Shown: positions 4,915-19,071 of the stretch, in pieces
How positions within the stretch are numbered: position 1 is the first letter of the stretch
How the letters are laid out: each line of letters opens with the position of its first letter
Translations under genes and position numbers: made by a program
Source of the DNA: Ectopseudomonas mendocina
Lineage (GTDB): Bacteria; Pseudomonadota; Gammaproteobacteria; Pseudomonadales; Pseudomonadaceae
Direction: 5' to 3'
DNA length: 64,000 nucleotides
Assembly: GCF_008041835.1 (NCBI RefSeq)
Contig: NZ_VRYE01000011.1
Coordinates: 124,001 to 188,000 of the forward strand
Notes under the pieces: generated by a model
The model's input: the letters and a program-made list of their open reading frames with translations, nothing else
What the model was told of the DNA's origin: nothing
The model's database searches: none

Positions 4915-6195
4915 ATGGCTGACAAAAAAGCGCAGTTGATCATCGAGGGCAATGCCCCCGTCGAACTGCCCGTTCTGACCGGCACTGTTGGTCCCGAAGT
5001 AATTGATGTGCGGAGCCTGACCGCCACGGGTCGGTTCACATTTGATCCTGGTTTCATGTCGACCGCCTCTTGCGAGTCGAAGATCACCTACATCGACGGC
5101 GACAAAGGGATTTTGCTGCATCGCGGCTACCCCATCGAACAACTCGCCGAGAAATCCGACTACCTGGAAACCTGCTACCTGCTGCTCAATGGCGAACTGC
5201 CGAGCAAGGAAGAAAAGGCCAACTTCGTCAGCACCATCAAGAACCACACCATGGTTCACGAGCAGCTGAAGACCTTCTTCAACGGCTTCCGCCGTGATGC
5301 CCACCCGATGGCCATCATGTGCGGCGTAGTCGGCGCCCTGTCCGCCTTCTATCACGACTCGCTGGACATCAAGAACCCGCAGCACCGCGAAGTATCGGCC
5401 ATGCGCCTGGTGGCCAAGATGCCGACCATCGCCGCCATGACCTACAAGTACTCCATGGGCCAGCCCATGATGTACCCGCGCAACGACCTGAATTACGCGG
5501 AAAACTTCCTGCACATGATGTTCAACACCCCCTGCGAGATCAAACCGATCAGCCCGGTGCTGGCCAAGGCGATGGACAAGATCTTCATCCTCCACGCCGA
5601 CCATGAGCAGAACGCCTCCACCTCCACCGTACGCCTGGCTGGCTCCTCGGGCGCCAACCCGTTCGCCTGTATCGCTGCCGGCATCGCCGCGCTGTGGGGC
5701 CCGGCACACGGCGGCGCCAACGAAGCGGTACTGACCATGCTCGACGAGATCGGCAGCGTGGAGAACATCGACAAGTTCGTGGCCAAAGCCAAGGACAAGG
5801 ACGATCCATTCAAGCTGATGGGCTTCGGCCACCGCGTGTACAAGAACTTCGACCCGCGCGCCAAGGTGATGAAGCAGACCTGCGACGAAGTGCTGGCCGA
5901 GCTGGGCATCAACGACCCGCAGCTGGAACTGGCGATGAAGCTGGAAGAGATCGCGCGTAACGATCCTTACTTCAAGGAGCGCAACCTCTACCCGAACGTG
6001 GACTTCTACTCGGGCATCATCCTCAAGGCCATCGGCATTCCGACCTCGATGTTCACCGTGATCTTCGCCCTGGCACGCACTGTCGGCTGGATCTCGCACT
6101 GGAAGGAAATGCTTTCCGGCCCGTACAAGATCGGGCGCCCGCGCCAGCTGTACACCGGTTACGAGCAGCGCGACCTGCCTGCCAACCGCGACTGA
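4915..6195 (+). CDS. gltA: Citrate synthase (type II)
   Basis: Condenses acetyl-CoA and oxaloacetate to citrate, the entry step of the TCA cycle. The 426 residues match the hexameric, NADH-sensitive bacterial type. The active-site histidines are in [10 protein letters not shown] and [14 protein letters not shown], and the C-terminal aspartate lies in the stretch NVDFYSG. The start ATG at 4915 is fixed by GGAGG 6 bases upstream and by the family N-terminus MADKKAQL; an in-frame ATG at 4870 lacks a site. It diverges from sdhCDAB and ends in a strong terminator. Confidence 0.98.
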
Positions 6196-8975: not shown

Positions 8976-9257
8976 ATGTTCAAGGTCAACGAGTATTTCG
9001 ACGGCACCGTCAAATCCATCGGCTTCACCATGGCCGAAGGTCCTGCCACCATCGGTGTGATGGCCCCGGGTGAATATGAGTTCGGCACCAGCCAGCTGGA
9101 AGTCATGCATGTCGTCGCCGGTGCCCTGACCGTCAAGCTGCCGGGCAGCGACAGCTGGAACACCTATGAGGCCGGCAGCCAGTTCACCGTCGAGGCCAAC
9201 AGCAAGTTTCAGCTCAAGGTGGCCGTAGACACCGCCTACCTCTGCGAATATCGCTAA
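8976..9257 (+). CDS. ppnP: Pyrimidine/purine nucleoside phosphorylase
   Basis: A 93-residue single-domain cupin (YaiE/PpnP family, formerly DUF1255) that phosphorolyses several nucleosides to base and ribose 1-phosphate. Visible family features are the start [17 protein letters not shown], the segment [13 protein letters not shown] and the C-terminal CEYR. ATG 8976 has GAGGA 9 bases upstream. Its terminator has been split by the mobile element at 9292-9434. Confidence 0.93.
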
Positions 9258-9273: not shown

Positions 9274-9454
9274 AGAACCGGCCCCAGTGGCTAATGCCGA
9301 TCAGATAAGGCCACCAAAGCGGCCTTTCGTAGGAGCCCCGCCCCGGGGCGAATGTCAATTGCGCATCACCCTGGTTCGCGGCGAGGCGCCACTCCTACGC
9401 ACTGACAGCGTCGACGCTTAACTGACTGGCATTACCCCAGTGGCCGGTTTTTTC
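9274..9454 (+). terminator. ppnP terminator, split by an inserted element
   Basis: The left arm AACCGGCC ends at 9283, and the right arm GGCCGGTT with a T-run starts at 9442. If the bases between 9292 and 9444 (the element plus one copy of the duplicated 10 bases) are removed, the two arms form an 8-bp stem with a 5-base loop followed by TTTTTT. The hairpin arms are now about 150 bases apart. Confidence 0.7.
9292..9434 (+). mobile_element. Miniature element copy A (about 143 bp) with terminal inverted repeats and 10-bp target duplication
   Basis: A non-coding element with imperfect terminal inverted repeats (TAATGCCGATCAGATAAG at the left, CTTAACTGACTGGCATTA at the right), flanked by a perfect direct repeat CCCCAGTGGC (9282-9291 and 9435-9444). 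The interior is a REP-type doublet: GTAGGAGCCCCGCCCCGGGG and, inverted, GGCGCCACTCCTAC. A second copy, inverted and roughly 85 percent identical by eye, lies at 17541-17686. It encodes nothing and no transposase is nearby, so it would have to be moved in trans. Confidence 0.75.
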
Positions 9455-17522: not shown

Positions 17523-17704
17523 AAAAGGCGACCTTCGGGTTAATGTCTGTCAGTTAAGCGTCGAAGCTGCAAATGGGTAGGAGCGGCGCCCCGCCGCGAA
17601 CCAGGGCGATACGCGATTGAAAAGCTTCGCCCCGGGGCGGGGCTCCTACGAAAGACCGCTTTGGCAAGCTTATCTGATCGGCATTGACCTTCGGGTCGCC
17701 TTTT
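17523..17704. terminator. Bidirectional terminator between htpX and tpm, split by an inserted element
   Basis: The left arm AAAAGGCGACC (17523-17533) and right arm GGTCGCCTTTT (17694-17704) would form a perfect 11-bp stem with a TTCG loop. They are now separated by the element at 17541-17686. Each side keeps one copy of the duplicated loop ACCTTCGGGT. Confidence 0.75.
17541..17686 (-). mobile_element. Miniature element copy B (about 146 bp), inverted relative to copy A
   Basis: Same element as 9292-9434, in opposite orientation. On the minus strand it begins CAATGCCGATCAGATAAG and ends CTTAACTGACAGACATTA, with the same internal REP doublet (GTAGGAGCCCCGCCCCGGGG and its mate GGCGCCGCTCCTAC). 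It is flanked by perfect 10-bp direct repeats ACCTTCGGGT at 17531-17540 and 17687-17696. Those repeats are exactly the loop and inner stem of the htpX/tpm terminator. Confidence 0.78.
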
Positions 17705-18640: not shown

Positions 18641-19071
18641 GGCCTGTTAACACAACCTCAGTCCGTCAACGATCAGGGCAAAAATAACGAAGCCGATGAA
18701 CATGACATCGAGCTTTTCAAAGCGGGAGAAAATTCTGCGAAATCCTTTCAAGCGCCGAAACAGACGCTCTTCCTCATTTCGGCGCTTATAGATTTCTCGG
18801 TCATATTCCCAGGGATTGATGCGAGTCCTCAGCGGAGGAACCACTGGGATAAAGCCCAGGTCCAGCGCAAGCTGACGGGTTTCGTTGCCCTCGTAAGCAC
18901 GATCCATCAGCAGATGATCCTCCGGTAGCAGCTCCTCCAATGTGGGAGGAAACAGGCTGCTTTGCTGACGACCTTCGCCCTGGATGTAGCCCATAAACGA
19001 CAATGCCCCCATCAACTGATGGAGGCATTGTCTTCAGCTTGCTCTCAGACTGCTAGGTTTTCACACAGTCT
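18641..19071 (-). mobile_element. Chimeric IS remnant: IS1182-type N-terminus fused to IS5-type C-terminus
   Basis: An open frame of 122 codons (18647-19015) begins with IS1182-type sequence (MGYIQGEGRQQSSLFPPTLE, ATG about 18994). Near 18914 it changes without a frame break to the C-terminal catalytic part of an IS5-family transposase (LLMDRAYEGNETRQLALDLG, RNEEERLFRRLKGFRRIFSR, FEKLDVMFIGFVIFALI). The shared residues DHL at the join suggest recombination or deletion at microhomology. GGCCTGTTAACACAAC at 18641-18656 may be the IS5 terminal repeat. A CAGACTG...CAGTCTG inverted repeat at 19044-19071 may be an IS1182 end. No intact transposase is present. Confidence 0.72.

Follow-up and report, generated by a model that had tools for sequence, protein, structure and literature searches.

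The non-coding unit inserted into the terminator downstream of ppnP in the window (the whole 64,000-nucleotide stretch of Ectopseudomonas mendocina DNA analysed here) is one copy of a multicopy family, and we put at about 0.8 the probability that it is a non-autonomous MITE of the IS4 subgroup, placed by a DDE transposase at the two-fold axis of intrinsic terminators. Terminator targeting is real and is wider than the MITE: over the families and genomes scored, 56 of the 69 copies with an exact target duplication lie in strong hairpins, and 54 of the 69 are centred on the hairpin.

The ends of the unit at ppnP (copy A), TAATGCCGATCAG and CTGACTGGCATTA, form imperfect terminal inverted repeats (Table 1). 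An earlier note on this DNA had described a non-coding 143-bp unit with terminal inverted repeats and 10-bp direct repeats, and had proposed that its removal rebuilds the ppnP terminator; the unit is indeed found at 9292-9434 and, once it and one repeat are removed, the site reads AACCGGCC-CCAGT-GGCCGGTT-T6, a predicted Rho-independent terminator with a GC hairpin and a run of six T (fold, -17.6 kcal/mol). When the window was shuffled 100 times, the 21-base left end was matched 0.00 times on average (up to three mismatches allowed), and its occurrence is therefore not due to chance. The same note had seen a REP doublet carried as cargo; the doublet is real and of the host type, and the REP 24-mer of the interior occurs 175 times in the genome (up to two mismatches), including places without the unit. 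Tandem arrays of this 24-mer, with a step of about 115 bp, were seen outside the MITEs (C189:10354-11295, C68:123-491 and C62). The copies of the B type, named after the second copy in the window, have a right end more diverged from E. coli IS4 than that of copy A. Near copy B, on the minus strand (18647-19015), lies a 122-aa reading frame, a chimeric IS remnant whose start resembles that of the transposase of L078 and the rest of which is a DDE_Tnp_1/DDE_Tnp_1_2 fragment.

Table 1. Positions of the MITE copies and neighbouring features in the window.
Feature	Position	Strand	Remark
MITE copy A, non-coding, IS4-type ends	9292-9434	+	143 bp
Left terminal inverted repeat, TAATGCCGATCAGATAAG	9292-9309	+	17/18 vs one E. 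coli IS4 end
Right terminal inverted repeat, TAATGCCAGTCAGTTAAG read inwards	9417-9434	-	18/18 vs other E. coli IS4 end
Copy A target duplication, left, CCCCAGTGGC	9282-9291		exact 10-bp repeat
Copy A target duplication, right, CCCCAGTGGC	9435-9444		exact 10-bp repeat
ppnP, upstream of the interrupted terminator	8976-9257	+	Pfam PF06865
Interrupted ppnP terminator, 5' arm (AACCGGCC)	9276-9283	+	uninterrupted in G012, G008
ppnP terminator, 3' arm GGCCGGTT (9442-9449) and T-run (9448-9453)	9442-9453	+	
REP doublet within copy A	9328-9399		inverted arms 9328-9352, 9375-9399
MITE copy B	17541-17686	-	146 bp; opposite to copy A
Copy B target duplication, one side, ACCTTCGGGT	17531-17540		
Copy B target duplication, other side, ACCTTCGGGT	17687-17696		

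A search of the unit against its own genome (G000; 4.79 Mb in 248 contigs), which the earlier note had called for and in which copies with two ends were counted and lone ends left out, gave 45 copies: 41 of 146 bp, two of 143 bp, one of 152 bp and one of 101 bp. An exact target duplication flanks 35 of the 45 (10 bp in 27, 11 bp in six and 12 bp in two), a duplication with one or two mismatches flanks five (L001, L020, L037, L087 and L097), and five have none (L003, L013, L014, L018 and L055). At L014, the right flank fails to complete the half-terminator of the left flank; this hints at either recombination between copies or a misassembly. The unit thus has the features of a MITE: it is short and non-coding, with inverted ends and target duplications, is present in many copies and lacks a transposase. 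Four of the 38 relative genomes searched gave a match: G000 itself, G012, where many of the 24 matches are partial, and two in which nothing but short stretches of the ends matched. For the weak hits in G018 and G008 (L105 and L106), there was no second end within 3 kb and no recognised transposase frame. An exact-pattern scan of named genomes returned ten stretches, in P. indoloxydans, P. oleovorans and P. chengduensis, five with an exact 10-11-bp duplication and five without; the hairpins of these ten stand outside the scoring described below.

Two further MITE groups with IS4-like ends, TAATGCTGTTCAC... and TAATGCTGATCAG..., were seen in G000 (L101, L102 and L103; L089-L092 and L095), and both seem to interrupt terminators too, as judged mostly by eye. 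The ends of the first of these groups match the end found beside an incomplete IS4-group gene at C69. Exact duplications were present in only two of ten other two-ended entries of G000 (one locus being counted twice), L092, which is at a strong hairpin, and L103, with a hairpin just below threshold (16.8). Elsewhere in G000 (C124), a 1.04-kb unit lies between two MITE-type ends (L084, 377-1417); its flanking repeats are inverted, not direct, and it carries an open reading frame at about 803-1297, which may encode a DoxX/DUF417 membrane protein.

The position of the copies relative to hairpins was scored after removal of the unit and one repeat from each copy with an exact duplication (copies without one, 28 of 84 entries, were left out); the best hairpin was sought within 12 nt, and a score of at least 18, on a simple scale of our own making, was taken to denote a strong hairpin. 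A strong hairpin was found at 28 of the 35 exact MITE copies of G000, with an axis that lies no more than 1 nt from the duplication's centre in all 28, and coincides with it in 20; the seven copies without one are L006, L008, L009, L019, L027, L034 and L088. By the same measure, 77 of 19,804 random positions in the window pass (0.4%), as do 24 of 2,961 positions in 3'-intergenic DNA (0.8%), taken from the 100 bp that follow each of 62 predicted genes of the window. Among the 28 strong-hairpin sites, in the orientation as listed, TTT is found within 16 nt on the right in 22 and AAA, that is, TTT on the opposite strand, on the left in 24; at a distance of 2-5 bp from the duplication, there is an A-tract in 23 and a T-tract in 21.

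For 19 of the 35 exact sites, the two flanks were joined as an empty site and queried against five relatives, and stretches of G012 were examined. Seventeen of the 19 matched in G012, without the unit and with the repeat region in single copy, the apex sequences differing slightly at several and the alignment being only partial at four (L012, L015, L021 and L025); for L016 and L024, no empty site was found in the five relatives. The ppnP orthologue is followed by an uninterrupted terminator in both G012 (AACCGGCCCCAGCGGCCGGTTTTT) and G008 (AACCGGCCCTCGTGGCCGGTTTTT), and the unit is absent from the 75 nt after the ppnP stop codon in all 12 parsable loci of the 20 relatives' loci listed. The insertions L104, L107, L108 and L109 are common to G000 and G012. 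Since several insertions are shared and empty sites are found as well, the family was active both before and after the split of G000 and G012. In G012, the orthologue of L012 (L217) holds a group II intron remnant (704-775; Rfam RF00029), and the intron-bearing insert starts just past the T-tract of the very terminator occupied by the MITE in G000; this one terminator has been the site of two different terminator-associated mobile elements.

The structure, which the earlier note did not recognise, is of a recognisable kind. The ends of copy A agree with those of IS4 of E. coli K-12 at 18 of 18 and 17 of 18 bases, and a full-length IS in a congener (L121 in G106), an element of the sort that the note had proposed to look for by its terminal repeats, has ends identical to those of IS4. 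The transposase of L121 (460 aa; 52% identity to InsG) has the Nterm_IS4 and DDE_Tnp_1 domains, falls under NF033592 and carries the YREK motif with the signature Y(2)R(3)E(6)K (YSQRWEIELGFREMK). Duplications of about one helix turn, as in the IS4 subgroup, are seen throughout (10-12 bp for the MITE, 10-13 bp for the ISs and 11-14 bp for E. coli IS4). Judged by these sequence features, the unit is a MITE of the IS4 subgroup, within the IS4 family.

The MITE would then be moved in trans, by cut-and-paste, by the DDE transposase of an IS4-subgroup element. An intact partner transposase was not found in the G000 assembly (248 contigs), nor in G012 in a search with the L121 protein; in G000, the same search returned only the gene at C69 and a distant one. 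The transposase remains in G000 are those at C69 (N-terminally incomplete and of a sister group), C180 (a short fragment) and C220 (a distant relative). The 13 DDE_Tnp_1 matches of G000 were considered as partners and rejected, the sole exact end of the copy A type among them (L082) belonging to copy B. The gene at C69 (L073) was likewise rejected: it is an IS4-group gene beside a related end, TAATGCTGTTCACTTAAG, with its N-terminal part missing. The sequence beyond this gene is presumably that of an IS66.

The same targeting is seen with full-length elements. The C69 protein was searched against Pseudomonas genomes, 27 of 149 of which matched, and further stretches were added; among the Pseudomonas ISs and their shorter derivatives, 17 have both ends as well as an exact duplication, and 14 of these 17 are in a strong hairpin, centred to within 1 nt, the exceptions being L115, L141 and L147 (ten more two-ended entries from other genomes have no exact duplication and were left out of the scoring). 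In a plasmid collection, 421 records hold relatives, and eight, from the 30 matches listed, were examined (Vibrio, Proteus, Salmonella, Pseudoalteromonas, two of Klebsiella, Serratia and Aeromonas). Their 11 copies all have exact duplications of 10-13 bp and strong hairpins, and 10 of the 11 are centred to within 1 nt; one Aeromonas record carries four IS4-type copies of 1426 bp, with duplications of 11, 12, 13 and 12 bp, all at terminators. E. coli IS4 itself matched 2,739 records, at 5,360 places; 14 places and that of K-12 were examined, giving 15 places and eight distinct locations. It lies at a hairpin apex in five of the eight (pst/glgP, raiA-bamD, the cspG region, adhE-tdk and crr-pdxK), with scores just below the strong-hairpin threshold at pst/glgP (16.8) and in the cspG region (17.5); no hairpin is found at the other three, two of which are intragenic and the third the K-12 site. 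At adhE-tdk of E. coli 20Y000092 (L272), the two copies of the IS4 duplication face in opposite directions and the stem has become perfect, an outcome that template switching in a palindrome might give.

A hairpin is thus a preference and not a requirement, because seven of the 35 MITE copies lack a strong one and three of the eight E. coli IS4 locations are without any. That the element targets terminator hairpins had been put forward in the earlier note from two copies; it is now supported by 43 other copies, by the empty sites and by the related full-length ISs. Of the observations that the note had named as speaking against it, the first did not hold, as the orthologous loci free of the unit have their terminators intact (17 of the 19 sites); further copies without a duplication or a hairpin do exist, but form a minority. 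The note was right that the duplication covers the loop and the inner stem, but not that its length is fixed at 10 bp, as it ranges from 10 to 12 bp across the copies. As to its statement that transposition recognises the hairpin, the targeting holds; recognition of the hairpin as such is something that we infer, because a double-stranded palindrome has the identical symmetry.

In the mechanism that we propose, a two-fold symmetric transposase-DNA complex would dock on the axis of the terminator (A-tract, GC stem, loop, GC stem, T-tract), so that both ends of the element would be joined symmetrically on either side of this axis. Self-complementarity, a C..G closing pair and A/T flanks would be what marks the target, and the length of the duplication (10-14 bp over all elements) would be set by the hairpin and not by a fixed spacing. 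In the 27 copies of G000 with 10-bp duplications, pairing across the axis exceeds that in shuffled pairings at the five positions immediately outside the duplication and the first two inside it (p of 0.004 or less at each of the seven positions; 2,000 shuffles), with several types of pair, and 22 of the 27 have C at position 3 and G at position 8 of the duplication; the central four bases pair no more than do shuffled ones in these 27 copies. Such covariation is the signature of a stem, but would also be expected of a duplex palindrome, and a terminator is a hairpin in any case. It is the centring, rather than the covariation, that calls for the symmetry axis.

Even duplications go with even loops and odd ones with odd loops (27/8 vs 4/15 in 54 centred copies; Fisher p 1.2e-4, a value that, like the other p-values, is not strictly valid, because the copies share ancestry and are not independent, the pair L028/L109 being orthologous). 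For the MITE, the length of the duplication is not correlated with that of the loop (rho 0.09, p 0.64) or with the distance from A-tract to T-tract (rho 0.24, p 0.32). Neither of the IS groups shows a correlation with loop length (rho 0.21 and -0.14, p above 0.5), and both show a weak one with tract distance (rho 0.59, p 0.07; rho 0.55, p 0.04). At raiA-bamD of E. coli, IS4 produced a 13-bp duplication in the apex CAGCTCAAGGCTG (13 nt) and a 14-bp duplication in the apex CAGCTCAAGGGCTG (14 nt): in these alleles, one loop base apart, identical stem positions were cut, and the downstream flanks differ. A third IS4 insertion at raiA-bamD has a 14-bp repeat with one mismatch. Both apex alleles are found uninterrupted; among the six matches listed, none had the downstream haplotype of the 14-bp case in uninterrupted form, and a short-sequence search with the 14-nt allele gave no match although this apex is present in L274, which we take as a limit of the search mode. 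Duplication length thus seems to vary with the hairpin rather than obey a fixed spacing, an effect that rests on parity and on one allele pair, because none of the three groups shows a correlation with loop length, and we infer that the stem sets the cuts. As a mechanism, placement of the cuts by hairpin symmetry is the best that the data suggest, as yet unproven.

At somewhat less than even odds, what the transposases of the IS4 subgroup read is the two-fold symmetry of a target able to form a hairpin, perhaps as an extruded cruciform, so that the stem places both cuts and the target writes the length of the duplication. A rival that we regard as possible, at odds rather below even, is that the transposase reads a double-stranded pattern, an A-tract and a GC half-site in mirrored arrangement, and not a folded hairpin, terminators being merely where mirrored half-sites occur. 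The A- and T-tracts at 2-5 bp from the duplication, the near invariance of C3..G8 and the A/T-rich flanks that some hairpin-free sites keep (by eye) all agree with such a pattern; however, the stem covaries through several kinds of pair, for which a fixed sequence would have no need, some sites with a single tract (L007, L023 and L030) are still centred on the axis, and the length of the duplication follows the apex in the raiA-bamD pair. It is very unlikely that insertion is non-specific and that selection removed the copies elsewhere, sparing terminators after genes: 3'-intergenic sites are cheap, and some copies do lie in gene ends or genes (L008; yicI in E. coli), but selection leaves the centring within 1 nt of the axis unexplained, as it does the difference between the pass rate of 3'-intergenic positions and that of the MITE copies.

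Two further readings concern the unit itself, and we give little credence to either. The doublet of the host's own REP family would fit a REPIN moved by the host RAYT, with TAATGCC ends that are incidental; yet the borders of the unit, its exact target duplications and its IS4-like ends lie outside the REP doublet, where a REPIN would consist of two inverted REPs without IS ends, and full ISs with related ends share the targeting. Just as improbable is a domesticated part of a terminator or attenuator, placed after genes by host selection. Dozens of copies interrupt terminator-like hairpins, and in minimum-energy folds an occupied site becomes a single long stalk whose outer terminator stem is still closed; against this, the sites in the sister genome are plain terminators without the unit, and an outer stem of at least four pairs is predicted in 33 of 37 occupied sites and, nearly as often, in 151 of 185 with shuffled inserts. 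The idea that the palindromic insert preserves the terminator by extending the stalk was rejected on the same count. Because most shuffled inserts also keep the outer stem, closure in these predicted folds appears to be a property of position and not of the palindromic interior. On the reading that we prefer, targeting of the axis by an IS4-subgroup transposase, insertion is probably cheap for the host, as it occurs just after genes and leaves the outer stem able to close.

If IS4-subgroup transposases do read hairpin symmetry and the stem places both cuts, they would be structure-guided DDE transposases for which intrinsic terminators serve as landing sites genome-wide. The sites at which a textbook IS tends to land would also become predictable, many genes ending in a possible site. 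With DDE transposases, it is normally the enzyme that fixes how long the duplication is; the puzzling variability of the IS4 duplications would find an explanation, and a length that appears to follow the target hairpin is a directly testable claim on how the target is held in the transposase complex. The elements could spread with little harm, and the inserted ISs and MITEs sit where read-through between neighbouring genes can change. A hairpin-seeking transposase could also serve for the insertion of DNA just after genes.

With E. coli IS4 and the IS4 subgroup, the MITE shares its ends, the 10-14-bp duplications and, in the cognate IS, a DDE transposase with the Y(2)R(3)E(6)K signature; it differs in being non-autonomous, a REP doublet replacing the transposase. 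IS4 was reported in 1984 to lie in the pheST attenuator. The interior of the MITE, an inverted pair of the host REP, resembles a REPIN or REP doublet; REPINs are moved by RAYTs and have neither IS4 ends nor 10-bp duplications. Group IIC introns also insert at intrinsic terminators, but their insertion is RNA-based and occurs after the hairpin, not at its apex. IS231A, an IS4-family element with duplications of about 11 bp, has the palindromic target GGG-N5-CCC; it differs from the elements studied here in its subgroup, its sequence-defined target and its host, Bacillus. No paper on terminator-apex targeting by IS4-type elements was found in our searches of open-access literature, most subscription journals being outside them. 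For some elements of the IS4 subgroup, a strong specificity for target arms and duplications of about 10 bp have been described (De Palmenaer, 2008; PMC2266710); the word "terminator" does not occur in the main text of that paper, and the target arms drawn in its figures may well be these. Repeats of 4 to 13 bp are given for the IS4 family (PMC7335449), and targeting of this sort is not described in the parts consulted of three other papers (PMC9208149, PMC10969869 and PMC6382973). A parallel is offered by ISRm22, of the IS4 family, nine copies of which lie in REPs of S. meliloti, inserted "just at the palindromy axis" (Tobes and Pareja, 2006; PMC1525189). The target of ISRm22 is a single family of REP sequences, whereas the targets found here are terminators unrelated in sequence that share a structure.
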